Positions 9,241 through 61,481 of a DNA stretch of 64,000 nucleotides are shown piece after piece. Each line of letters begins with the position of its first letter. Position 1 is the stretch's first letter. A program made the translations under genes and the position numbers. The stretch lies in the NCBI GenBank assembly GCA_944324115.1, contig CALUVB010000022.1, positions 62,001 through 126,000 of the forward strand, read 5' to 3'. The stretch comes from an uncultured Elusimicrobiales bacterium (GTDB taxonomy: Bacteria > Elusimicrobiota > Elusimicrobia > Elusimicrobiales > Elusimicrobiaceae). The notes beneath the pieces were generated by a model. That model made no database searches. It saw only the letters and a list, made by a program, of their open reading frames with translations, and had not been told where the DNA came from.

Positions 9241-9759
9241 CTACATAACCGGTTTTTCGTTTCCTTTAAACAGTCTTTTGCACCAGACTTCGCTGCCATA
9301 ACAAACAATCTGATTTGGATATGGGGCATTTTCACACGTCTCATATTGCAGCGTATATTTGATATCAATATTTTCAAAATCACCGGTGAAATTATCTACC
9401 CGGCGTGCCATGGGTCCGTTCACCAAGCCTGTCGCACAAAAATTCCCCCAAGACAAGGAGCTGTTAGCATAGCACCATTTGTCATTACAACAGATTTCCT
9501 CATCTCCATTAAACTGGCAAGTAAACCCGCCGCCCAATTCTATCCCGGCTTCTTCATTCGTTATTTGGTTGCAGCCCGCCACGCCTCGTTCCAGCACACA
9601 CAGCTCCCCCTGCTGATGCATATAACGCAACATCTGCAAAGCTTCCGCAGCGCGGCTTTTTTCCACCGCTGTTTCATACCGAGGCAAGGCAATGGCAGCC
9701 AAAATGCCGATTATTAATACCACAACCAACAATTCTATAAGCGTGAAACCTTTTTGCAT
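9241..9759 (-). CDS. Type IV prepilin-like protein
   Basis: This 172-residue protein starts [22 protein letters not shown], giving a 3-residue leader, the prepilin peptidase site (G|FTLIE, with Glu at +5) and a hydrophobic helix that both anchors the subunit and packs the pilus core. The globular part has about ten Cys residues, several likely to form disulfides. It is monocistronic and faces the hydrogenase gene. Elusimicrobiota carry many such solitary prepilin genes. No assembly ATPase, secretin or PilD gene is in the window, so whether it is a pilin or a pseudopilin is open. Confidence 0.88.
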
Positions 9760-12711: not shown

Positions 12712-14207
12712 TTTACTTTTCTCCAGCGTTCCACCTTTTCGGGAGAAACCTCGTTCTTTCCATTTAGGCACAAACGCAATACGGTACGCATTTCTACTTG
12801 GGTATTTTTAAATTCTAACGAATCAATAAACGCCTCATGCCCCGCACCGCCCGCCAGCATATGGTCTGTTACGGCCACGCGGTACACTTTGGAAGGGATA
12901 AGAGCCGCTCCGTTTATTAGTATGCGGTCAATGCGTGTCCCGACCGCGGCTTGCGGATTATAATAAACGCTTAAACCGGAAATCTGGGCAAAATTATGTG
13001 CGACAGAAAGCCCTTCTTCTAAAGCGTTTTGCAGGGCGGCGCCTTTAATATCTAAAAAGGTAATATGGTCTGCGTACGGATACATCTCATACAAATCATA
13101 CTGGGTAACCGCACCTTCCGGCAAGTCAGCCCTCAGCGAATCGGCATTGATGACGGCTGCGTCAGCTTTGGCCCAACGGCGCATGCAATCTGCTACCCAA
13201 TTACCCAAAGAGGATTCTTGATCCAAATCCCCGGTCAACTGTTGCGCCAGCTTGCCTACAGGCCGGTCCATTTGACTTCGCGCCGTACGCCGCAAAGCGG
13301 CTATTTGTTGTGCCACCGCTGCATCTTCCCCAAAATCCCGCCGGTAGAGCACTTTGTCTTCAAAACGCACCTCCGCCAGCTGATTTTCCTTGTTAAAATA
13401 CAGTCCCACTTGCCCTACACCGTCTAATTTGGCGCCTGGATAAACAATTAAAGTACGGCCGACGTATTCAGTTTCAGCTTCTTCACGGCCCAAATTAGAG
13501 CTTAAAATGACATCTATACCAGGCACTTCTTCAGCCAATTGAACATCTGTCAGTGCTTTTTCATCACTTCCGGCACCCAAAGCACTTAATAACACAATGG
13601 CATCTACTCCCTTCTCCTGCAATATATGCACGGTTTTGCGGGCGGCTTCCAGTTCATCACCTATTTCCAGCCCACCCATACGGCGTTTACCTGCCACAGC
13701 CTGCCGCCCCACCAGCCCCAATATGCCAATCCGATAATCCCCCGCCTTTGCAATCAGCCAAGGCGTTGCTCCGGAAGGCGTTTTACCGCCGGAAGTAACA
13801 TTAGAGAGAATAAATGGGAAAGGAGACTCTTTGATAATTTGCCGCAGAGAACCCCAGCCATACGCCAGGTCTTTATCTGTAAACAAACGGCCCGCATAAG
13901 GCAAAGAGGCAGCCATTTGATTAAAATAAGCCCCCTGGGAAAGCGTACCCTCCGGGGTTTGGGCATACCAGTTTCCGCCGTCTAACAAAACATAAGGAAT
14001 TGTTTGTTTTTCCAAGAAGGATTTTAATACCGCCAGGCCGCCCGTCATCTCATTGCCGTATTGCGGCTCCGGCCGCGCCCAAAAGACGCCCTCTATGTCT
14101 GAGGTAAAAAACAGATAAGCAGACGGAGGCATTTGCTGGCGGGCGCAGCCCAAACTAAAAAACAGCACCGACAAACACAGAAAAAGACGGACAGCGCTCA
14201 CCTTCAT
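12708..14207 (-). CDS. Degenerate 5'-nucleotidase-family lipoprotein (probable pseudoenzyme)
   Basis: This 499-residue protein starts with a lipoprotein signal (FFSLGCARQ, Cys 21). It aligns in layout with UshA-type metallophosphatases: an N-terminal metallophosphoesterase-like domain (about 30-270) and a 5'-nucleotidase C-terminal domain (about 300-480). The metal-binding motifs that its two upstream neighbours keep are lost: HTSDTHG has become FTSDIEG, DSGDF is DGGNW, no GNHE exists, and LGGHVHN is replaced by LSSNLGR. The C-terminal SLGNWVADCMRRW and the MYPYADHITF region are kept. It overlaps the upstream paralogue by 4 bases (ATGA). A binding or structural role, or an altered substrate, is likelier than normal nucleotidase activity. 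Confidence 0.82.
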   Translation of the reverse strand: MKVSAVRLFLCLSVLFFSLGCARQQMPPSAYLFFTSDIEGVFWARPEPQYGNEMTGGLAVLKSFLEKQTIPYVLLDGGNWYAQTPEGTLSQGAYFNQMAASLPYAGRLFTDKDLAYGWGSLRQIIKESPFPFILSNVTSGGKTPSGATPWLIAKAGDYRIGILGLVGRQAVAGKRRMGGLEIGDELEAARKTVHILQEKGVDAIVLLSALGAGSDEKALTDVQLAEEVPGIDVILSSNLGREEAETEYVGRTLIVYPGAKLDGVGQVGLYFNKENQLAEVRFEDKVLYRRDFGEDAAVAQQIAALRRTARSQMDRPVGKLAQQLTGDLDQESSLGNWVADCMRRWAKADAAVINADSLRADLPEGAVTQYDLYEMYPYADHITFLDIKGAALQNALEEGLSVAHNFAQISGLSVYYNPQAAVGTRIDRILINGAALIPSKVYRVAVTDHMLAGGAGHEAFIDSLEFKNTQVEMRTVLRLCLNGKNEVSPEKVERWRKVK

Positions 14208-15670
14208 TTAAATTCCACAATGCGCCCCGTGGGCAGCGGTTTGACAGGAGATTGCGTCTTTAACCCATTTTCCAACATACTGCGGATTGTAACATGAGAA
14301 ATTTCTTGCTTTTCGCTGTCTTTGATTTTTTTGAAAGGCCAGCCTTCGCTGCCTCCATAGCCGATATAAGAGTTGGTGGCTAAGGTATATTTTTTATGAT
14401 TTTCAACGAGCTCCCCATCTACATATAATTTTAAGTCTTTTACCTTTCCGTTTTTATTGCGGTATGTAATGGTCATTCCAGAATAGGTAAACAGACTGCG
14501 CGGCAACAGGGATTTCTTTACCAAATACTTTAAAAATTTACCGTCAACCGTCATCTTTACTATCGTATTGTCAAACGGGTGTATGTCGGTGGTATTGCGG
14601 CGGGTGACGGGGCCTTTCTCCATATCTGTGCGGGTGCCTCCGTTGTTGTGTACAAAAATTTGTGTGCCGGCGGCTTCCCGCCCCAAATCGGCTATCCAAT
14701 CATTTAAGGGGCCGTCTTTATGTTCGGGCACGGAGGAAAAACGTGCAATATCCGCCGCCGCTTCACCAAATACTTCGTCCATACCCGGTTCTTTAAGCGT
14801 TTGGGCATACTGCGCCACATCTGCGTCTTCCCCCACTTGTTCCACGATTAAAGGAATCAGTTCCGATTTGGCTGAAACAAAAGCACCGGTTTTATCATCT
14901 GTTTCTATGGTAATCTTGCTGACGTTTTGAACATAGCAGCCGCTTTCCACATACAACACGCCATTAATATATTCGTTCTGTACTATATTATGCACATGTC
15001 CGCCCAGTACCACATGCACACGCCCGCCGAATTTTTTGCCTATTTTGGCCACATAGCTCTGTGTGCCGTGTTTTTCATCGCGCAGTCCGTCATGCACCAA
15101 CACAACCACCACGGCCGGATTTTCTTTTTCCACTTCTTTTAATGTTTTTTTCAAAGCGGAAAGCGGATTGGTAAATTTATAGGTTTTATCATTATTGGTC
15201 GGGGTGCGGTTGGCCAAGCCGATAACCGCCACATTCACACCGCCCACATCAAAAATCCGGTAGGGAAGCACCAAGGGCGGATATTTCCCAGTCTTGCTTT
15301 CAAAGAAGTTAGCCCCCAAAGCAGGGAACTTCAAATTCTGCAAAATCGGTTCCACGCCGGCAGCTCCGAAATCAAACTCATGATTTCCAATCGTGGTGGC
15401 ATGATATCCCACCGCATTCATTAAAGCGGCGCTTTTTAACCCTTTGGAATTTTTGGCCTCGGCTGTTCCGTTTGAAAAATCCCCGCTGTCTAAAAGCAAA
15501 TAAGGCTGCGGCCCTTTTTTCACCACAGAGGCCAAAGCGGCAAATCCACCCTGGCCTTTTTTCGGATAATAGAAACCATGCGTATCGCTGGTATGATAAA
15601 TAATCGTCGTCTTAGCCAACAAAGCCGTGGCGGCGAATAAAAAGACGGACAACAGAAATAGTTTTTTCAT
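14204..15670 (-). CDS. Secreted bifunctional metallophosphatase/5'-nucleotidase (UshA-like)
   Basis: This 488-residue protein has a signal peptide ending LLAKT (about 20) and then the calcineurin-like metallophosphatase domain with all ligands: HTSDTHGFYYP, LLDSGDF, IGNHEFDFG, VLVHDGL and LGGHVHN. The C-terminal substrate domain holds FVHNNGGTRTD and the PFDNTIVKM region. Such enzymes release phosphate from nucleotides or UDP-sugars in the periplasm. The start has GAGGAGC as ribosome-binding site. It is a close tandem duplicate of the gene at 15775-17238, with which it shares an identical upstream 70-base segment, and it is coupled by ATGA overlap to the degenerate third copy. Confidence 0.93.
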   Translation of the reverse strand: MKKLFLLSVFLFAATALLAKTTIIYHTSDTHGFYYPKKGQGGFAALASVVKKGPQPYLLLDSGDFSNGTAEAKNSKGLKSAALMNAVGYHATTIGNHEFDFGAAGVEPILQNLKFPALGANFFESKTGKYPPLVLPYRIFDVGGVNVAVIGLANRTPTNNDKTYKFTNPLSALKKTLKEVEKENPAVVVVLVHDGLRDEKHGTQSYVAKIGKKFGGRVHVVLGGHVHNIVQNEYINGVLYVESGCYVQNVSKITIETDDKTGAFVSAKSELIPLIVEQVGEDADVAQYAQTLKEPGMDEVFGEAAADIARFSSVPEHKDGPLNDWIADLGREAAGTQIFVHNNGGTRTDMEKGPVTRRNTTDIHPFDNTIVKMTVDGKFLKYLVKKSLLPRSLFTYSGMTITYRNKNGKVKDLKLYVDGELVENHKKYTLATNSYIGYGGSEGWPFKKIKDSEKQEISHVTIRSMLENGLKTQSPVKPLPTGRIVEFK

Positions 15671-15774: not shown

Positions 15775-17238
15775 TCATTTTTCCACAATGCGGCCTGTGG
15801 GCGGCGGATTCAAAATGCCGTGCTTTAAATCATCTTCTAAGATTTGGCGCATAGTTTTTTCTCCGGCAGGCTTCATAGTACCCTGTGGCAGGGTGCCGAA
15901 CAATTTGCCTTCCCCGCGGCCTCTGCCCATATAGGAATTGATGGCCACTGTATACATCGCTTTTTTATTCAAACGTTTGCCATGTATCCAAATTTTCAAT
16001 TTTTCAATTTTGCCGTCTTCCGTCTGTGAATAAGAAAGATTCAGTCCGCAATAAGCCAGCCGCACCCAAGGGGTAAGACCCGCCTTTACCAACTGTTCCA
16101 AAAACGCACCGCTGACCTGCCCCGTCATGATCGTATCATCAAATGGATATAAATCTATAATGTCACGCCGAATCACCTCTCCTTCGGGCAGGCCTGTGCG
16201 GGCTCCTCCTGTGTTATGAATACAGACATCTGCCTGCACCTCGCGGCAAAGCGCGTCTGCCACCCAATTATCCGCAGGAGAATCTTTATGTCCAGCGGTA
16301 CGGGCTGTTTTCTCCAAGACGGCCGAAGTCTGCCCCACCACATCATCTACACCGCTTTCCCGCAGCGCTTCTGCGGCTTTTTTGACTTCTTTGTTTTCTC
16401 CTGTCTTCTTGATATCCAAAGGGATCAATTCCGATTTGGCGGAGACGAACTCTCCGCTTTGGTCATCTGTCTCCACCGTTACTTTCGTAACATATTTCAG
16501 ATAATAGCCGCTCTCGGCAAACAACACCCCGCCGCGGTATTCGTTTTGAAATATTTTATGGGCGTGTCCGCCCAGCACCACATGCACACGCCCACCCAGC
16601 ATACGGCCGATATCACCGATATAATTGGGGTGTCCCATTCTGTCGTCTGCCAAGGAGTCATGGGCCAGCACGACCACCACAGCCGGTTGTTGGGCTTCCA
16701 CTTCGCTAAGGGCTTTTTGCAATGCGGCAAAAGGCTCCGAAATGTGATATTTTTTAATAGGCTTGGTCGGGTTTTGGTTTGCCAATCCAATAACGGCCAC
16801 CTTAACTCCGTCTATATTAAAAATTTTATAAGGCAACACACCGGAAGGATATTTGCCCGTTTCAGCCAAAGTTAAATTGGCGGCCAATACAGCAAACTGA
16901 GCTTGATTTAGAATATCTTGAAATCCTTCTTCTTTAAAAGCGAACTCATGATTGCCCACTGTGGCGGCATCGTAATTCAACTGATTCAACATCATGACGG
17001 CTTTTAATCCTTTGGAACGCTGCGTTTCCACCGTACCTTCAGCAAAGTCCCCCCCGTCTAATAACAAGTAATTGCGCGGGCCATTATGCAACACCGCCGC
17101 CAAAGCCGCAAAACCGCCTTTTCCATCTCTGGGATAAAAAAAGCCATGCGTATCGCTGGTATGATAAATAATCGTCGTCTTTGCCGGCAAAACCGCAGCG
17201 GCAAATAAAAAGACTAACAACAGAAATAGTTTTTTCAT
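15775..17238 (-). CDS. Secreted bifunctional metallophosphatase/5'-nucleotidase (UshA-like), paralogue
   Basis: This 487-residue protein has a signal peptide (cleavage near VLPAKT) and the metallophosphatase motifs HTSDTHGFFYP, LLDGGDF, VGNHEFAF, VLAHDS and LGGHAHK, then the C-terminal domain with HNTGGARTG and YPFDDTI. Asp/Ser changes in the second and fourth motifs relative to the next paralogue are conservative. The ribosome-binding site is AAGGGAT. It is the first of three tandem copies. The N-terminal coding segment and the upstream region are nearly identical in DNA to the second copy, so the duplication is fairly recent or homogenised. Confidence 0.93.
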   Translation of the reverse strand: MKKLFLLLVFLFAAAVLPAKTTIIYHTSDTHGFFYPRDGKGGFAALAAVLHNGPRNYLLLDGGDFAEGTVETQRSKGLKAVMMLNQLNYDAATVGNHEFAFKEEGFQDILNQAQFAVLAANLTLAETGKYPSGVLPYKIFNIDGVKVAVIGLANQNPTKPIKKYHISEPFAALQKALSEVEAQQPAVVVVLAHDSLADDRMGHPNYIGDIGRMLGGRVHVVLGGHAHKIFQNEYRGGVLFAESGYYLKYVTKVTVETDDQSGEFVSAKSELIPLDIKKTGENKEVKKAAEALRESGVDDVVGQTSAVLEKTARTAGHKDSPADNWVADALCREVQADVCIHNTGGARTGLPEGEVIRRDIIDLYPFDDTIMTGQVSGAFLEQLVKAGLTPWVRLAYCGLNLSYSQTEDGKIEKLKIWIHGKRLNKKAMYTVAINSYMGRGRGEGKLFGTLPQGTMKPAGEKTMRQILEDDLKHGILNPPPTGRIVEK

Positions 17239-28286: not shown

Positions 28287-29392
28287 TGCGTATTTTACTT
28301 TTGCCAAACAGCTTAAAAGGCTCTTTAAGCGCGCGCCAAACGGCGCGCGTTTTGGAATCGGTTCTCTCCCCGCGCCATTGTATAAAAAGCTTTCCTCTTT
28401 CCGACGGGGGAGATGGATTTATTGATTTCTTTAAAGCATTACACCCCAGCGCACGCCTCATTCACTTGCGCGCGAAAAATGCTTTTTTGAAAGAGAGAAA
28501 CACGTCTTACTTATGGCTGGAAAAAGAAAAAACAGCCGTAATAGAAACAGCCCGCATTTGCGGTTTGGCAACAGCTAAAAAAGAAGAACTCAATGTGCTG
28601 AAAGCTTCTTCCTTCGGCATCGGGCAGGCCATGGCGCACGCCCTGCGGCAGGGAGCAAAAAAAATATATATCGGGTTAGGCGGAGTGGCTTGCAACGACG
28701 CAGGGGCCGGCATTGCCCGTGCGTTGGGCGCTCTGTTTTGGGACCGAAAAAATCAGCCGCTTGCAGACGGAGCGAAACCGCTGTTGCAATTGGCGCGCAT
28801 AGAAACCGAAGCCGCCAAACGGCTTTTGCGCGGAGTAAAAATTTATGCTGTTGCAGATGTTGTCAATCCCATGCTGGGGCCGCAAGGCTCCGCCCGCGTA
28901 TTCGGCCCCCAAAAAGGCGCCACCCCCGCCCAAGTGCGTACGTTGGAAAAAGCCTTGCGCGTTTATGCGCGCGCCGTCAAAAACACGACCCATCGGGATA
29001 TCGCCCACACCCCCGGCACAGCCGCGGCGGGTGCGCTCTGCGCGGGACTGTACGGGCTGTTAGGGGCGAAGATTGTGTTCGGGGCGGATTTTATTAGACA
29101 GCATTTGCCGCTGGAGCGCTGGACTCAATGGGCGGAGCTGGTCATTACGGCAGAAGGGAAATTAGACGCCCAAACTTTCTTTGGCAAAGCTCCTTTAGCC
29201 GTGCTGAACTGCGCCGCCAAAAACAAAAAACCCGTCTTATTTATATGCGGCTCTTATGACGAGAAATCTCTAAGGAAGCTTCCGCACGGGCTGCGCCTCT
29301 CTGTTCTGTCTCTTGTGGATTTTGCCCCGCATCTTTCAGACTGCATAAAAAATCCAACACGTTATTTGCGCCGGGCACTTAAAAGATTCTAG
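28286..29392 (+). CDS. Glycerate kinase
   Basis: This 368-residue protein is of the GarK/GlxK glycerate kinase family, which phosphorylates D-glycerate with ATP. Signatures are LLPNSLKGSLSA at the N-terminus, PLSDGGDGFIDFF (about 36), SFGIGQAM (about 111), IGLGGVACNDAGAGIARALG (about 131-150), VADVVNPMLGPQGSARVFGPQKGA, and ITAEGKLDAQTFFGKAP near 290. It is translationally coupled to the upstream envelope gene. The stop is TAG and overlaps the converging prepilin gene by 4 bases. Confidence 0.93.
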   Translation: MRILLLPNSLKGSLSARQTARVLESVLSPRHCIKSFPLSDGGDGFIDFFKALHPSARLIHLRAKNAFLKERNTSYLWLEKEKTAVIETARICGLATAKKEELNVLKASSFGIGQAMAHALRQGAKKIYIGLGGVACNDAGAGIARALGALFWDRKNQPLADGAKPLLQLARIETEAAKRLLRGVKIYAVADVVNPMLGPQGSARVFGPQKGATPAQVRTLEKALRVYARAVKNTTHRDIAHTPGTAAAGALCAGLYGLLGAKIVFGADFIRQHLPLERWTQWAELVITAEGKLDAQTFFGKAPLAVLNCAAKNKKPVLFICGSYDEKSLRKLPHGLRLSVLSLVDFAPHLSDCIKNPTRYLRRALKRF

Positions 29393-29931
29393 AACGGTAA
29401 AATATAATACCGAGGCGTATCTTCTAGGCGCACGCCGCCCAAGGCTTTGCATAAACGCTCACGGGCGGGATCCAGGTTGGAATAACACCGCGGACTAGAC
29501 GAATCAAAAAACCAAACAAATACTATATTTTCATTTTCCCCAACTATATACAGGCGGGGTCTTCCGTTTTTACTAGCCAGATTATAGCTAGCTGTATTAT
29601 TTTTCTTAGTAGGACAATCTCCATCGGCATAAGCGTTGGAAAGACACGCCATGTCACTGGGCAAAGAAACGTCCAGCTCATTAAAGTCATAGCAATAGTC
29701 CCCATTACTCATAAGATAAAGTCGTTCCGCTTCTATAATACTACGCCCCAAGGGTAACAAAGACAACGCCTTGCTTTTTTGCACAGCCAACAGATATTGA
29801 GGCAAAGCTACCGCCGCCAATATGCCGATAATCAGCACTACCACCAACAGTTCAATTAATGTAAAACCGCTTCTTTTGCTTTTTAAGAAGTTTTTAGGAG
29901 AAAAGATACTTTTTTGATAGGTTTTGTCCAT
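29389..29931 (-). CDS. Type IV prepilin-like protein
   Basis: This is 180 residues from the ATG at 29931 (a TTG two codons upstream also opens the frame). The leader is long (about 20 residues, basic) before the peptidase site [19 protein letters not shown]. The globular domain resembles the short pilins or pseudopilins with a Cys pair near the C-terminus. It converges on and overlaps the glycerate kinase by 4 bases. Its upstream region holds an A12/T12 run (29946-29957). It is a second solitary prepilin, unlike the first beyond the N-terminal helix. Confidence 0.87.
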   Translation of the reverse strand: MDKTYQKSIFSPKNFLKSKRSGFTLIELLVVVLIIGILAAVALPQYLLAVQKSKALSLLPLGRSIIEAERLYLMSNGDYCYDFNELDVSLPSDMACLSNAYADGDCPTKKNNTASYNLASKNGRPRLYIVGENENIVFVWFFDSSSPRCYSNLDPARERLCKALGGVRLEDTPRYYILPF

Positions 29932-30034
29932 AGACAAATGCTATCAAAAAAAAAAAATAGGTCAAGGCGGTTTACGGCACGCAGTCACCGACATCTATAT
30001 CAAAGAATCACACAAGCCAAACAGCCGTTTTTTT

Positions 30035-56221: not shown

Positions 56222-56293
56222 GCCCAGTTGGCGCAGGGGTAGCGCGTTCCCTTGACATGGGAAAGGTCATAGGTTCAAATCCTATACTGGGCA
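56222..56293 (+). tRNA. tRNA-Val (anticodon GAC)
   Basis: GCCCAGT pairs with ACTGGGC, discriminator A at 56293. The anticodon loop TTGACAT, within stem TTCCC/GGGAA, gives GAC. The T-loop is GGTTCAAATCC. The CCA is not encoded. The tRNA marks the left edge of the AT-richer accessory segment. Confidence 0.97.
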
Positions 56294-56607: not shown

Positions 56608-58674
56608 ATGTCTGTTTCTACCGAACAAGAGTTGGTCTTAAATTCAATTAAAGCAAGCAAGGCTCCAATCATTTTTATACAGGGGAAAGCGGGCAGCGGC
56701 AAATCACATTTAGTGAGGGCACTTTTAGACCATTTTCAATGTGATGTATTAGTCCCGACCAATATGGCAAAATCTGTTTATCCGGAGCGGCGCGCCAGCA
56801 CTATCTTTTCCTTTTTTAATGGACAGCTTGACGACATGGATGAGCGCTATCAAAATCCCGATGGGTATACGGAATTGAGAAATCCGGAATATCTGTTGTA
56901 TTTTAAGAAAAAAATGGCAGCGCTGCGACACTTAATTATCGATGAGATATCCATGGTGCGTTCTGACATGCTGGAAATGATTAACAAAATTTGCCAAGTC
57001 TACCGCGAAAACACGGAGCCATTTGGGGGAATTCAGACAATTTTGGTAGGGGATTTGTTTCAATTACCTCCTGTATTACAAGAAACGGAGGTGAGAGATT
57101 TCCTGTATTATAAATACAATGGCATTTATTTTTTTAACAGTTTGGTAATACAAAATAACCTGTCAAAAATTGAATTTTACGATTTAAAAAAATCATTTCG
57201 GCATAAAGATGACCCGGAATATGAAAAGTTATTAGATAAGCTGCGCAAATCCCATACGGCTACAGATATTATTCCTCTACTCAAACGCATTAATCAGCGC
57301 GTGACAAAACGCCACGATATTCCATATGATGTCGTAACGATTGCCACCACCAATGCCGAAGTAAGTAAAATTAATTACGAAAAACTGGCCGATCTGCATG
57401 GAACGGTCCTTCAAGAAGACGCAGAATTTAAAATTCGTAAACGAGATACAGAGACGAATGAGCCGATGCACCTGTCAGGCATAAACTCTTTATGCTTTAC
57501 TGGAGAATCTGTTCCGCCGGAGTATAACACTAAGGAATACTATCCTATTGAGGTGCCCTCTCAATTTTCGGCCTCATTGCAATATAAAATTGGTTCACGC
57601 GTGATGTTCACGAAAAGCGGCGGGAGAAAACCGCTTAAATATGTCAATGGAGAGTTCGGCGTGATACGTGACGTGCGCTCTTACAAAAACCTCAAAGGTT
57701 CATTTACCAAGCAGCTGAAAGTAGAACGGATTGAAAAAATTTTACGGTCTGATGGTTCAGAAGCATGGCATGATACAGGTCAAATGATAGACTTAGTTGC
57801 CAGTCATGATAGACGCTATCAGATGATCTACGATAAGGAAAAGCATGAGTTGAAGCGAGGGGCTTTGCTGCAAGAAACAACACAATTCCCCCTAAAATCC
57901 GCTTATGCCTTTACTATTCACAAATCGCAGGGACAAACTTACCCCAAAGTGCTGATTGACTTGGAGAGTCACATCTTTGCCCCGGGGCAGTTATATGTAG
58001 CTTTAAGTAGGGCAACCTCCATGTCTGGCTTATATCTCACCAAGCCGATAGCAGTAAGTGATTTCCTAATTGAGCCAGCGATCTTCGCTTTTTTGGAACA
58101 GATGCATCTGCCGCCACAGAAGCGCGACAAAAGAAAATTACTGCAAATCCCTGCGCGTCTTATGGCATTTGCTCCGCTAGAAGCCCCTGCATGTCAAGAA
58201 TTAACTTCGCAGGTAAATAATAGCGCGGCTATCAGCCCACAGACGAAGGCAACCATTTATAACTGGATTAAGTATTATAACGATGCTTACCAAGCAAAAG
58301 AATATCAGTTTTCATTCTCTGAATTGCTCAAAATTCTTGATATCATAACCTCTAATTTTCAAACAGCAAATTTTGAACGCCAGATTGAGGCTGTACGCCA
58401 AATTCCATTGGAGAACATTAATCAAAACAAATGTGACGAAATGGTAGAACTCCTTGCCCACTTATTACAAGAAATCGGGGGGAAGCCGCCCAAGCCTATA
58501 GTGCAAGACCATTTAGCCGATGTGGGGCTGTCTTCTCTGCCTGAGAGAACATTGGCCTTTAGTGACGAAGGCTTAACGGGTTATTGCTATAAAGATCTCT
58601 TTGCCCCTTATCTTGCAGGCGCTACGGAAATAAAATTAATTGACACTTTCATAATGAAGCCCTATCAGTTCTAG
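56608..58674 (+). CDS. PIF1-like DNA helicase with the start of a BrxL/MIT_C-like C-terminal domain
   Basis: This 688-residue superfamily 1B helicase has Walker [17 protein letters not shown] (about 24-39), Walker [11 protein letters not shown] (about 110), GDLFQLPPV (motif III, about 148), a Q-rich SFRHKDD region, and the late motifs [14 protein letters not shown] (about 432) and [10 protein letters not shown] (about 462). The last 40 residues, with [19 protein letters not shown] and IMKPYQF, match the opening of the phospholipase D-like domain found at the C-terminus of BrxL and MIT proteins. An in-frame TAG then cuts it; the rest of the domain is encoded directly downstream in the same frame. 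Composition is AT-richer than the surrounding housekeeping genes. Confidence 0.88.
58672..58674 (+). other. In-frame amber codon inside a conserved domain
   Basis: The codons read ...TAT CAG TTC TAG AAC CTA AAA GAA TTT ATG..., giving YQF-stop-NLKEFM. In BrxL/MIT_C domains this stretch is typically YQxRNLxEF, so the TAG replaces what is usually Arg or a similar residue in an otherwise intact motif. Readthrough would yield one protein of 835 residues (56608-59115). Confidence 0.75.
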
Positions 58675-58689
58675 AACCTAAAAGAATTT

Positions 58690-59115
58690 ATGGAAAGGTT
58701 GGTTCACAACAAAGAAAAGAATGCGATTATTTCGTTACATTTACAAACGCGCGAATTTTTTGCCCAAGATCAAAAAGCCTCTGCGGAAGAAATAGAGGAG
58801 AGTCGTTGCAAACAGAAAGACTTTTTCAAACGCATGGAACAAGATTATCGCAAATACGGTATTGTATTTACCTATGAATTCAGCAATAATCTAAAAATAC
58901 ATGACAGAAAAATCATCGCTAACAACGGGTGGATCATCAAGCCTGGCAAAGGGCTGGATATGTGGATGAGATGCCCCAGAGATCCCTATGAAAACAATAT
59001 AGATGACGCCCAGAGACGCCGGCCGTGCTATGGCGGTATGGATATTTCATACATACGAAAAGAGAACTATCAGGACTTGTCTGAAAATGGGGGAAAAGAA
59101 AATTCTCTGGCTTAA
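58690..59115 (+). CDS. Remainder of the BrxL/MIT_C-like (phospholipase D-like) domain, separated from the helicase
   Basis: This is 141 residues from ATG 58690, in the same frame as the helicase and only 15 bases after its TAG. It continues the domain with a helical segment (REFFAQDQKASAEEIEESRC, about 23-42), VFTYEFSNNLKIHDRKI (about 57-73; HDR/HxR-like motif), NNGWIIKPGKGLDMW and RRRPCYGGMDISYI. These match the second half of the MIT C-terminal/BrxL C-terminal fold. It may be translated as a separate subunit by reinitiation, although no ribosome-binding site is obvious, or be a relic of a disrupted fusion. Confidence 0.7.
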   Translation: MERLVHNKEKNAIISLHLQTREFFAQDQKASAEEIEESRCKQKDFFKRMEQDYRKYGIVFTYEFSNNLKIHDRKIIANNGWIIKPGKGLDMWMRCPRDPYENNIDDAQRRRPCYGGMDISYIRKENYQDLSENGGKENSLA

Positions 59116-59150: not shown

Positions 59151-60167
59151 TTATAACACGTCTTGCTCTAGATATTGTTTGAGTCGGTCTCTAAATTCTT
59201 CAGCTAGTTTATGGGGAGCCAAAATTGTAATATTCGGCAACCACTTTTGAATCATGGGAAAGATGTTATTTTTTATTTCTATATCGTCACTGCTGACACA
59301 GGTAAGAATAAGCCCGCTGGCAGTTTCTTTGATGATTTTTTGTTGCGGAAAGTAAATTTTCTTTTTAAAATACGAGGCAATTGGCTTTTTAATAAACAGT
59401 TTAATCGTCTGTGTAATATTATCCGAGTTGAACCACATGCCAACAGCATTCCCCAAAATATACTCAATGGCTTTTTTAGGATCTTTGTCTGGGTTATACT
59501 CAAAGTATCTGCTTTTTTTATCCGGTTGTACATTGGCAATGCTTTCCAAGCGGTATTTCATTATTTTTCTGTCAAAATAACCAATTAAGTACCAAAATCC
59601 TTCGCTAAAGCAAATTTTTAATGGTTTAAATCCCGCCCATGCCGTCTTTTTGCCCGTTTCATTCTTTCTAGTAATCGTAACAGTATATTTCTTTTGAATT
59701 GCATCTAATAATGTTTCAAAGCCGCTGATAAGACGTATCGTTTCTGCTTGTTGAGGAAATTTAATAAATAAGGGGTTTTCTTGCGGGCTTAAGCGCCAAT
59801 AGGCACGAAAGACGGCCGGAGACATGCCCAAACTTTCCGCCAACGGCTCTATGGTGTCATGAAATATTTTATCTTGTTTGGCATTGGCCAAGCTATAGCC
59901 TTCCTTAAAACCATAATTGCCGTGTCCCTTGCGTTCAATATAAAAATTCTTTTCTTTTTTTCTAGTTTTTTTCTTATCTTCCTTCTCTTCAGAAAGATTC
60001 AGACAGTCGTTGAGCAATTTTATGTCTCTTTGTATTGTACGGATATTAACATTTGCATTCGCGGCAAAGTGCTGCAAGTTGATGCCACTTGCCGGAGCAG
60101 CATCAAAACGCAATAAAAGTGTAATTAAACGATTTATTTTTTTAACATCAGCACGACGGTAACTCAT
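59151..60167 (-). CDS. WYL-domain transcriptional regulator
   Basis: This 338-residue protein has an N-terminal winged helix-turn-helix (about 5-60, with NINxRTIQRDIKLL-type recognition helix NVNIRTIQRDIKLLND), a basic linker (KKTRKKEKN), and a WYL domain (about 180-235) with the namesake FWYLIGYFDRKIMKYRLESI. A C-terminal WCX-like extension follows. Such proteins (BrxR, CapW and related) often repress phage-defence operons and sense a ligand through WYL. It converges on the helicase gene and is divergent from the TPR gene. GGAA precedes the ATG. Confidence 0.9.
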   Translation of the reverse strand: MSYRRADVKKINRLITLLLRFDAAPASGINLQHFAANANVNIRTIQRDIKLLNDCLNLSEEKEDKKKTRKKEKNFYIERKGHGNYGFKEGYSLANAKQDKIFHDTIEPLAESLGMSPAVFRAYWRLSPQENPLFIKFPQQAETIRLISGFETLLDAIQKKYTVTITRKNETGKKTAWAGFKPLKICFSEGFWYLIGYFDRKIMKYRLESIANVQPDKKSRYFEYNPDKDPKKAIEYILGNAVGMWFNSDNITQTIKLFIKKPIASYFKKKIYFPQQKIIKETASGLILTCVSSDDIEIKNNIFPMIQKWLPNITILAPHKLAEEFRDRLKQYLEQDVL

Positions 60168-60263: not shown

Positions 60264-61481
60264 ATGAAAAGAACACAAAATGCAAATCATAAAAAAGCAA
60301 TGGCTTACAAAGAGATGGGGGATCAGTACCAAAACTGGTCGGATTATGAACAAGCTCTGGAATGTTATGATGAAGCAATAAATATTGACCCGACTTATGC
60401 GGAAGCCTATGATATGCGCGGGATAACCAAAGCATTGTGGGGCCGCCCGGAAGAGGCATTGGCTGATTTTGACAAGGCCATAGAGCTTTCCCCAGAAAAC
60501 TCAGACTATTACAACAATCGCGGCAATGCTCATGCTGAACTGAAAAATTACGAGTTGGCTATGGCGGATTTTTCCAAAGCGCTTTCTCTTAATTCTACAA
60601 ATGCGCTTACTATCTATAGTCGCGGCAGACTGTATGCTGACTTGGGACAACATCAACAGGCGTTGGCTGATTTTGACAGGGCTATTGAACTTGATGAAAA
60701 ACATTCCGCCTCTTATTATCATCGTGAAGTGATGAAAAATAAACTGGCAGGACAAGGCATACATGTGCCGGACACTGACCAAATTATCAAGAATGCACAT
60801 TTTACAGATTTGTTTTATGTAAATCGTGGAATAGCGCGGGATTATTTGGGTAATTATGAAGCAGCTATTGCTGATTATAGCAAAGCCATAATGATAAATC
60901 CGACCTGCGGCGGGCATTATTACAACCGCGGGCAATCCCATCTATCTGCCCAGCACTATAAACAGGCGCTTGCCGACTATACGGAAGGAATCCGTCTGTA
61001 CCCTGTTGCCAGTGGATATTTAGGACGTGGACAAGCTAATTTTTACTTAAAACGCTATCAAGAAGCTTTATCCGATGCAGATAAAACTATTGAATTGGAA
61101 CCATATGCTGTAGACGCTTATATTTTGCGTGGCAAGATTAGATTTAATATGGAGCAGTTTGAACAGGCCATTGCGGATTTTGACAAAGCATTAGAAGTTA
61201 CGCCGACTGATGCAGCTATCTTAGAAAACCGCGCAAACGCAAAATACAAACTGGAAAAATACGAGGAAGCTGTCGCAGACCTTGACAAAGCGCTCTTAAT
61301 TGATCCGAAACGGCCCAATACATATCTTTTGCGCTCCGCTTGCCTTACAGCGCTCCAACGCTACGAAAAAGCGGAAGCGGACTGCCAAGCAGTCTTAAAA
61401 TTAGAACCGGCCAACAAAACGGCTAAAATTTGGCTACAGCATATTAAACAAGAACAAATAAAGTACGGAAACAAAAAGTAA
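60264..61481 (+). CDS. Tetratricopeptide-repeat protein
   Basis: This 405-residue protein is built almost entirely of about ten TPR units of 34 residues (for example YNNRGNAHAELKNYELAMAD and AYILRGKIRFNMEQFEQAIA), with one irregular insert near residues 155-185. There is no signal peptide or membrane segment, so it is probably a cytoplasmic scaffold. The ribosome-binding site is AGAGGG. It is divergent from the WYL regulator and may be under its control. Its composition matches the helicase segment. Partners are unknown. Confidence 0.9.
   Translation: MKRTQNANHKKAMAYKEMGDQYQNWSDYEQALECYDEAINIDPTYAEAYDMRGITKALWGRPEEALADFDKAIELSPENSDYYNNRGNAHAELKNYELAMADFSKALSLNSTNALTIYSRGRLYADLGQHQQALADFDRAIELDEKHSASYYHREVMKNKLAGQGIHVPDTDQIIKNAHFTDLFYVNRGIARDYLGNYEAAIADYSKAIMINPTCGGHYYNRGQSHLSAQHYKQALADYTEGIRLYPVASGYLGRGQANFYLKRYQEALSDADKTIELEPYAVDAYILRGKIRFNMEQFEQAIADFDKALEVTPTDAAILENRANAKYKLEKYEEAVADLDKALLIDPKRPNTYLLRSACLTALQRYEKAEADCQAVLKLEPANKTAKIWLQHIKQEQIKYGNKK

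Follow-up and report, generated by a model that had tools for sequence, protein, structure and literature searches.

What does a gene encode when a stop codon lies in the middle of a conserved domain, and what is its fate? This question is raised by a locus of the window, the whole stretch of 64,000 nucleotides from an uncultured Elusimicrobiales bacterium that was analysed here. A frame at 56608..58674 (+ strand) runs from ATG to TAG and encodes 688 amino acids, namely a PIF1-type SF1B helicase, a linker of helices and then the ~31 residues with which an MIT_C domain begins. The TAG (58672..58674, + strand) is codon 689 and is flanked by Gln687 and Asn690, both invariant in the MIT_C alignment. 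It is followed in the same frame by the remainder of the domain with the conserved residues His765-x-Arg767 ... Asp784 (58675..59115, + strand; 146 codons, ending in TAA). The joined frame has 835 codons with the single TAG as its one lesion; neither a second stop nor a frameshift was seen in it. The preliminary description of the locus had proposed a helicase frame interrupted by a single in-frame amber codon, and indeed the frame has the coordinates described there and the MIT_C profile spans the stop. The fusion and its split are both real.

The identity of the first part as a PIF1 helicase, also proposed before, is well founded. Pfam PIF1 (PF05970) matches with 3.7e-16, above the cut-off, and other SF1 helicase profiles are found in this part as well. 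The helicase motifs are intact (27 invariant columns in a 43-row alignment), and in the model of the full-length protein the PIF1 core is mostly of high confidence, with Pif1 helicases as the nearest solved folds in Foldseek. The core is like that of the solved bacterial Pif1 helicases from Bacteroides, Thermus oshimai and Deferribacter (sequence 2.5e-50, fold 3.8e-34), but no MIT_C tail is reported for the latter. Core and tail are connected by a linker (58075..58560, + strand) that is predicted to consist of helices with pLDDT mostly 44-77 and in which a Pfam scan found no family.

The tail is a MIT_C/phospholipase D-like domain, interrupted by the TAG (58579..59004, + strand). Read through the stop, the frame matches Pfam MIT_C (PF16565) with 90.8 bits (1e-25) at residues 658-799, and the part behind the stop alone still reaches 57.9 bits (1.4e-15). 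Both are above the gathering score of 25 bits; the 31 residues before the stop give 18.3 bits (0.0023), below the cut-off. The PADLOC profile for BrxL matches the read-through frame as well (3.4e-27, residues 642-819), and the closest solved sequences are those of MITD1 (1.9e-14). With such scores behind and across the stop, the downstream frame is very unlikely to be open by chance. The assignment to the BrxL/MIT_C type is thus supported by Pfam, by PADLOC and by MITD1 in sequence and in fold (2.3e-14), and the profile search, which according to the preliminary description might have revealed an unrelated C-terminal part, found it to be related to both MIT_C (1e-25) and BrxL (3.4e-27).

For a closer look at the residues, 19 BrxL proteins contributed their C-terminal parts to an alignment with window residues 640-835, which has 20 rows. 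The 19 were chosen from 22 that had been fetched; L070, L076 and L082 were omitted because they nearly duplicate included rows or are shorter than these. A 51-row alignment put BrxL rows onto PIF1 columns and was discarded in favour of separate MIT_C and PIF1 alignments. Eighteen columns are invariant in the 20 rows, 14 of them behind the stop, and all 18 are kept in the window. Among them are His765, Arg767 and Asp784, residues of the HKD/HRD type that is found in the PLD superfamily. From these and from the interpretation of a BrxL domain in a computational study (PMC12839542) we infer that they are the catalytic residues of a putative nuclease. At other, nearly invariant positions the window departs from BrxL, having Met for Arg 44, Asn for Asp 133 and Lys for Arg 142 (alignment residues), and its MIT_C is therefore a divergent member of the set. 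In a tree of 29 MIT_C rows the window row remained unplaced on a long lone branch. The stop had been placed within a YQx(R)NLxEF motif. It does lie between the invariant Gln and the invariant Asn, but the stop column itself is variable, the 19 BrxL rows having Arg, Lys or Asp there. Since all 18 invariant columns are kept and a second stop or frameshift is absent from the frame, the change to TAG would be recent, or else the frame would still be in use.

Structure prediction had been suggested in the preliminary description for the joined product, and for its C-terminal part it gave a confident MIT_C fold. AlphaFold2 was run on residues 640-835 with the 20-row alignment and the stop read as Gln (mean pLDDT 89.1, pTM 0.84). 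In the model of the full-length protein the MIT_C part was poor since MIT_C rows were absent, and that model was not used for this domain. Foldseek with the joined MIT_C model found MITD1 at the top (2.3e-14, TM 0.85 by target length), followed by phosphatidylserine synthases and other enzymes of the PLD superfamily. The stop corresponds to model residue 50 and cuts a helix (46-62). Because strand 35-40 precedes the stop and the other core strands follow it, neither piece is predicted to hold the whole fold. The His, Arg and Asp residues (model residues 126, 128 and 145) are all behind the stop. The half domain left on the 688-residue product is, judged from the model, unlikely to fold.

Could the cell read past the stop? 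General reassignment of the code, considered unlikely from the outset, was rejected since ordinary genes of the window end in TAG: TAG terminates nine of the 49 non-overlapping window ORFs of at least 120 amino acids, the helicase frame among them. A suppressor tRNA was likewise rejected. ARAGORN read all 44 tRNA genes found in the genome (30 loci and 14 stretches), and none of them, in a genome that is 96% complete, has a CTA anticodon; unusual tRNAs such as tRNA-Pyl may escape this program. The RNA at 58660-58780 folds no better than shuffled sequences (z 0.39), so a recoding structure behind the stop was not apparent. Neither a suppressor tRNA nor a reassigned code nor a readthrough structure, the marks of a readthrough gene, was thus found, though weak or unknown signals would escape such a search. 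Conditional readthrough, in which some amber suppression would yield a little joined helicase-nuclease next to mostly nuclease-free helicase, would also need the conserved frame that is seen behind the stop, which is no direct sign of it. With no matching anticodon among the 44 tRNAs, an ordinarily folded RNA and ordinary TAG-terminated genes, it is very unlikely.

A second way around the stop is reinitiation, that is, a split gene with the helicase and the MIT_C part as two subunits. The first ATG behind the stop, at 58690, begins 15 nucleotides after the stop codon, which speaks for this. Its predicted anti-Shine-Dalgarno pairing is only -1.1, compared to -6.5 at the helicase start at 56608, which has a good ribosome site; many others of the 41 listed starts of the window are weak in this respect too. 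In addition, a second product from this ATG would, according to the model, be missing the core strand that comes first and a portion of the first long helix, and none of the 19 other rows of the MIT_C alignment is split at this point. Reinitiation is therefore highly improbable.

A third possibility is that the stop is not present in the living population, which would make the intact 835-residue protein, and that the TAG is a sequencing or assembly error or a variant of a minority strain. The genome is a draft of 25 contigs with 96% completeness, and the 835 codons contain no more than a single lesion, which conserved residues flank on either side; both would be in line with this. Against it speaks that the fusion gene has no frameshift or other sign of error, and single point errors in assembled contigs are uncommon. 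We consider this explanation unlikely. Of the three fates that had been left open for the locus, inactivation is best supported; the weak ribosome site and the cut within the fold speak against reinitiation, and readthrough is without a positive sign. A recent change that inactivates the gene is the most likely origin of the stop, a sequence error a less likely one, and the stop codon itself is probably ordinary.

How widespread is the fusion? The source genome has the fusion gene once, together with a separate PIF1 of 444 amino acids. With the fusion as query, 89 of 101 genomes (source and 100 relatives) gave a match; among the matches listed, the others are PIF1 cores of different genes with ~30-49% identity, and besides the window only one protein, from G055, matches in the MIT_C part. 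This protein is a true BrxL with BrxL_N, BrxL_ATPase and MIT_C. An orthologue of the fusion was thus not found in the 100 relatives, where other PIF1 genes do match. The C-terminal query matched two of 235 genomes of the class and three of 340 of the phylum, two overlapping sets whose counts both include the source genome, and a second PIF1 fusion was not among them: the matches are the source genome, G055 and a weak one in G326, which lies in a frame of an ABC-type ATPase and was rejected as false. In the phyla around G340, G342 and G341, MIT_C matches were obtained in 27 of 395, four of 350 and five of 346 genomes, respectively.

Outside these groups the picture was the same. In viral contigs, the MIT_C alignment as query found 14 loci, all BrxL, and a single-protein query found no fusion; no PIF1-MIT_C fusion was found in phages, and none of 80 viral PIF1 ORFs examined carries MIT_C. 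Contigs of further genomes gave eight MIT_C loci, all BrxL (L084 partial), in a scan with two peptide patterns only that would miss many relatives. Among 24 plasmid records with MIT_C none is labelled PIF1; five of the 24 were fetched and read. As part of the search for other PIF1-MIT_C fusions that had been proposed, 62 fetched MIT_C loci were classified by tblastn with the window PIF1, the N-terminal/ATPase part of BrxL and the window MIT_C as queries. Fifty-six have a BrxL motor, one has a DruE helicase and none has PIF1; at least three places are included twice (L168 is L080, L169 is L084 and L170 is L079). The six non-BrxL loci are L191, L239, L194, L199, L195 and L196. Sel1 repeats follow MIT_C in L191 (the same place as L200), L239 (the same place as L258) encodes the DruE protein, and L195 and L196 are weak MIT_C matches in short proteins. 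MIT_C is thus a portable tail: most often it is joined to BrxL, in at least one case to a Druantia-type SF2 helicase, and in the window to PIF1.

Some of these loci deserve a separate mention. L258 567-6545 (G997) encodes a DruE-type helicase of 1993 amino acids (PADLOC DruE 1e-165) with a C-terminal MIT_C (Pfam 3.3e-27), which is another helicase-MIT_C fusion. An odd architecture is found at L200 3598-6000 (G500), where an uncharacterised N-terminal region is followed by MIT_C and then by ten Sel1 repeats. In L194/L199 (G579) a broken MIT_C lies in two short frames with TAG codons and has apparently decayed. On plasmids, L061 1622-4462 (Candidatus Thiodictyon) combines a dynamin-type GTPase (dynamin-N) with a C-terminal MIT_C, L060 has IF2_N fused to MIT_C, and L063 2400-4441 (Hymenobacter) has a BrxL annotated in several pieces, apparently a decayed MIT_C-bearing defence gene.

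The neighbourhood of the fusion was compared with that in sister species. Upstream lies a tRNA-Val (GAC; 56222..56293, + strand). A gene for a WYL-domain regulator (59151..60167, - strand; Pfam WYL 1.8e-7, PADLOC WYL 1.2e-18) converges on the fusion gene, and its divergent partner encodes a TPR-repeat protein (60264..61481, + strand). Orthologues of the WYL gene are present in G029, G047 and G010, and the WYL-TPR pair is kept in all three. In G029 the order is dnaE, tRNA-Val, terminator and then WYL-TPR, with ~200 bp from the terminator to WYL, and the fusion gene is absent; in the source genome dnaE is near the fusion. In G047 and G010 the WYL-TPR pair is kept together with the genes that follow it, but those in front differ. 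G047 has neither dnaE nor tRNA-Val within 20 kb upstream, and its left flank is wholly different. Where the source genome has the fusion, a four-gene operon lies beside WYL-TPR in these two species (L046 1-8684 in G047, L047 1-7238 in G010). It encodes an MkoA-like helicase, a 527-aa protein without a family, a PDC-M26A McrB-like ATPase and a DUF2357 protein; the families were scanned on the G047 proteins, and the G010 proteins are alike by reading.

Integration at the tRNA gene was considered and rejected. Repeats were sought and G029 was compared, in which the tRNA-Val and its terminator are conserved and divergence starts behind the terminator; no sign of a tRNA-targeted insertion was found at this tRNA-Val. 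The tRNA gene at 56222-56293 has no encoded CCA, its G029 counterpart does. Elsewhere in the window, two neighbouring ORFs of ~488 amino acids (14204-15670 and 15775-17238) have very similar N-termini and are apparently a tandem duplication, and two pilin-like ORFs (9241-9759 and 29389-29937) share an almost identical N-terminal stretch of 19 residues.

Which known system does the protein resemble? WYL regulators often accompany defence systems, as seen for 48% of the BrxR homologues in one survey (PMC9122601), and the adjacent WYL gene and the variable spot favour a defence locus. With BrxL of BREX type 1 that has HKD/MIT_C, the window protein shares the C-terminal MIT_C and its invariant residues on a DNA motor. 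In a computational study the C-terminal domain is an HKD endoDNase with Arg for Lys in 1030 of 2913 BREX type-1 taxa with BrxL, and this BrxL-HKD is interpreted as an endoDNase that has the motif HRD (PMC12839542); the solved BrxL carries a different, Lon-like C-terminal domain (PMC10164562). The motor differs: it is MCM-like AAA+ with BrxL_N in BrxL but PIF1 (SF1B) in a single gene here. BrxL_N and BrxL_ATPase, both present in L033 from the same genus, are absent from the Pfam matches of the window protein. A BREX system would also have core genes nearby, but the nine neighbouring proteins (49.7-63.9 kb) gave no PADLOC match to BREX and thus include no pglZ, brxC or pglX.

DruE of Druantia (published as type III; here locus L258) likewise combines a helicase with a C-terminal PLD-type domain. 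According to a preprint this SF2 helicase, which carries two PLD domains at its C-terminus, cuts long DNA, and a change in the PLD pocket abolishes defence (PMC13192584); another preprint surveys the family (PMC12458937). In DruE as described in print the active PLD domain need not be MIT_C, and the likeness is one at the level of PLD-type domains. DruE is an SF2 helicase of the YprA family with ~2000 amino acids, whereas the window protein is an SF1B PIF1 of 835 codons when joined, and neither PADLOC DruE nor Pfam MZB, the MrfA Zn-binding module, matches it. A PIF1-MIT_C protein was not among the papers listed from the open-licence literature. Helicase plus PLD-type nuclease is a known kind of protein; the pairing of PIF1 with MIT_C appears to be a new architecture of this kind.

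The third relative, human MITD1, shares fold and sequence kinship with the C-terminal domain but has no helicase. MITD1 is a eukaryotic ESCRT-linked protein that binds membranes and is not known as a nuclease. As the solved MIT_C is that of a membrane-binding protein, MIT_C alone is no proof of a nuclease. The protein might then be an accessory PIF1 of replication or repair, not of defence, with MIT_C as a module that binds DNA, membrane or protein. The frequent occurrence of PIF1 helicases as housekeeping genes in the group (matches in 89 of 101 genomes), the MIT_C of MITD1 as closest solved fold and the nearby dnaE fit such a role. Hard to reconcile with it are the lack of an orthologue in the 100 relatives searched, though other PIF1 genes match there, the variable spot beside the WYL gene with McrBC-like content in two sister species, and the occurrence of MIT_C elsewhere mostly on BrxL. 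We regard a housekeeping role as quite unlikely; a role in defence is probable, judged from the relatives of the domain and from the neighbourhood.

On this basis the following model is proposed. In a variable spot next to a WYL regulator, the locus would once have held a helicase-nuclease encoded by a single gene, which probably served in defence against phages or mobile DNA. The PIF1 (SF1B) motor would load on single-stranded DNA and unwind it or translocate, and the DNA so exposed would be cut by the MIT_C/PLD-like domain, which has a His-x-Arg...Asp site; such cutting is proposed in print for PLD-bearing BrxL and has been shown for DruE. A recent nonsense change would then have left a product of 688 residues in which the helicase core is complete and none of the putative nuclease residues remain; it may stay a helicase or be degraded. 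As this product lacks the nuclease residues and its half domain is unlikely to fold, the gene is most likely an inactivated or nuclease-off allele. Overall, we think it fairly probable that the locus is a recently truncated helicase-nuclease, probably of defence, that is now inactivated or has its nuclease switched off. It is tempting, but a good deal less certain, to go further and regard the intact gene as an undescribed single-gene defence effector made of an SF1B PIF1 and a C-terminal HRD PLD nuclease, the loss of which would fit the cost of its upkeep.

If this is true, PIF1-MIT_C would add a further, separate case of MIT_C coupled to a DNA motor, next to those of BrxL (AAA+) and DruE (SF2). 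MIT_C is a portable module that is found on different DNA motors among antiviral proteins. That the allele is truncated and lies in a variable spot fits the rapid gain and loss known for defence genes. If active, the PIF1 version would bring helicase-nuclease restriction to the SF1B family as well and may offer a small one-gene test case for the coupling of a motor to a PLD nuclease.
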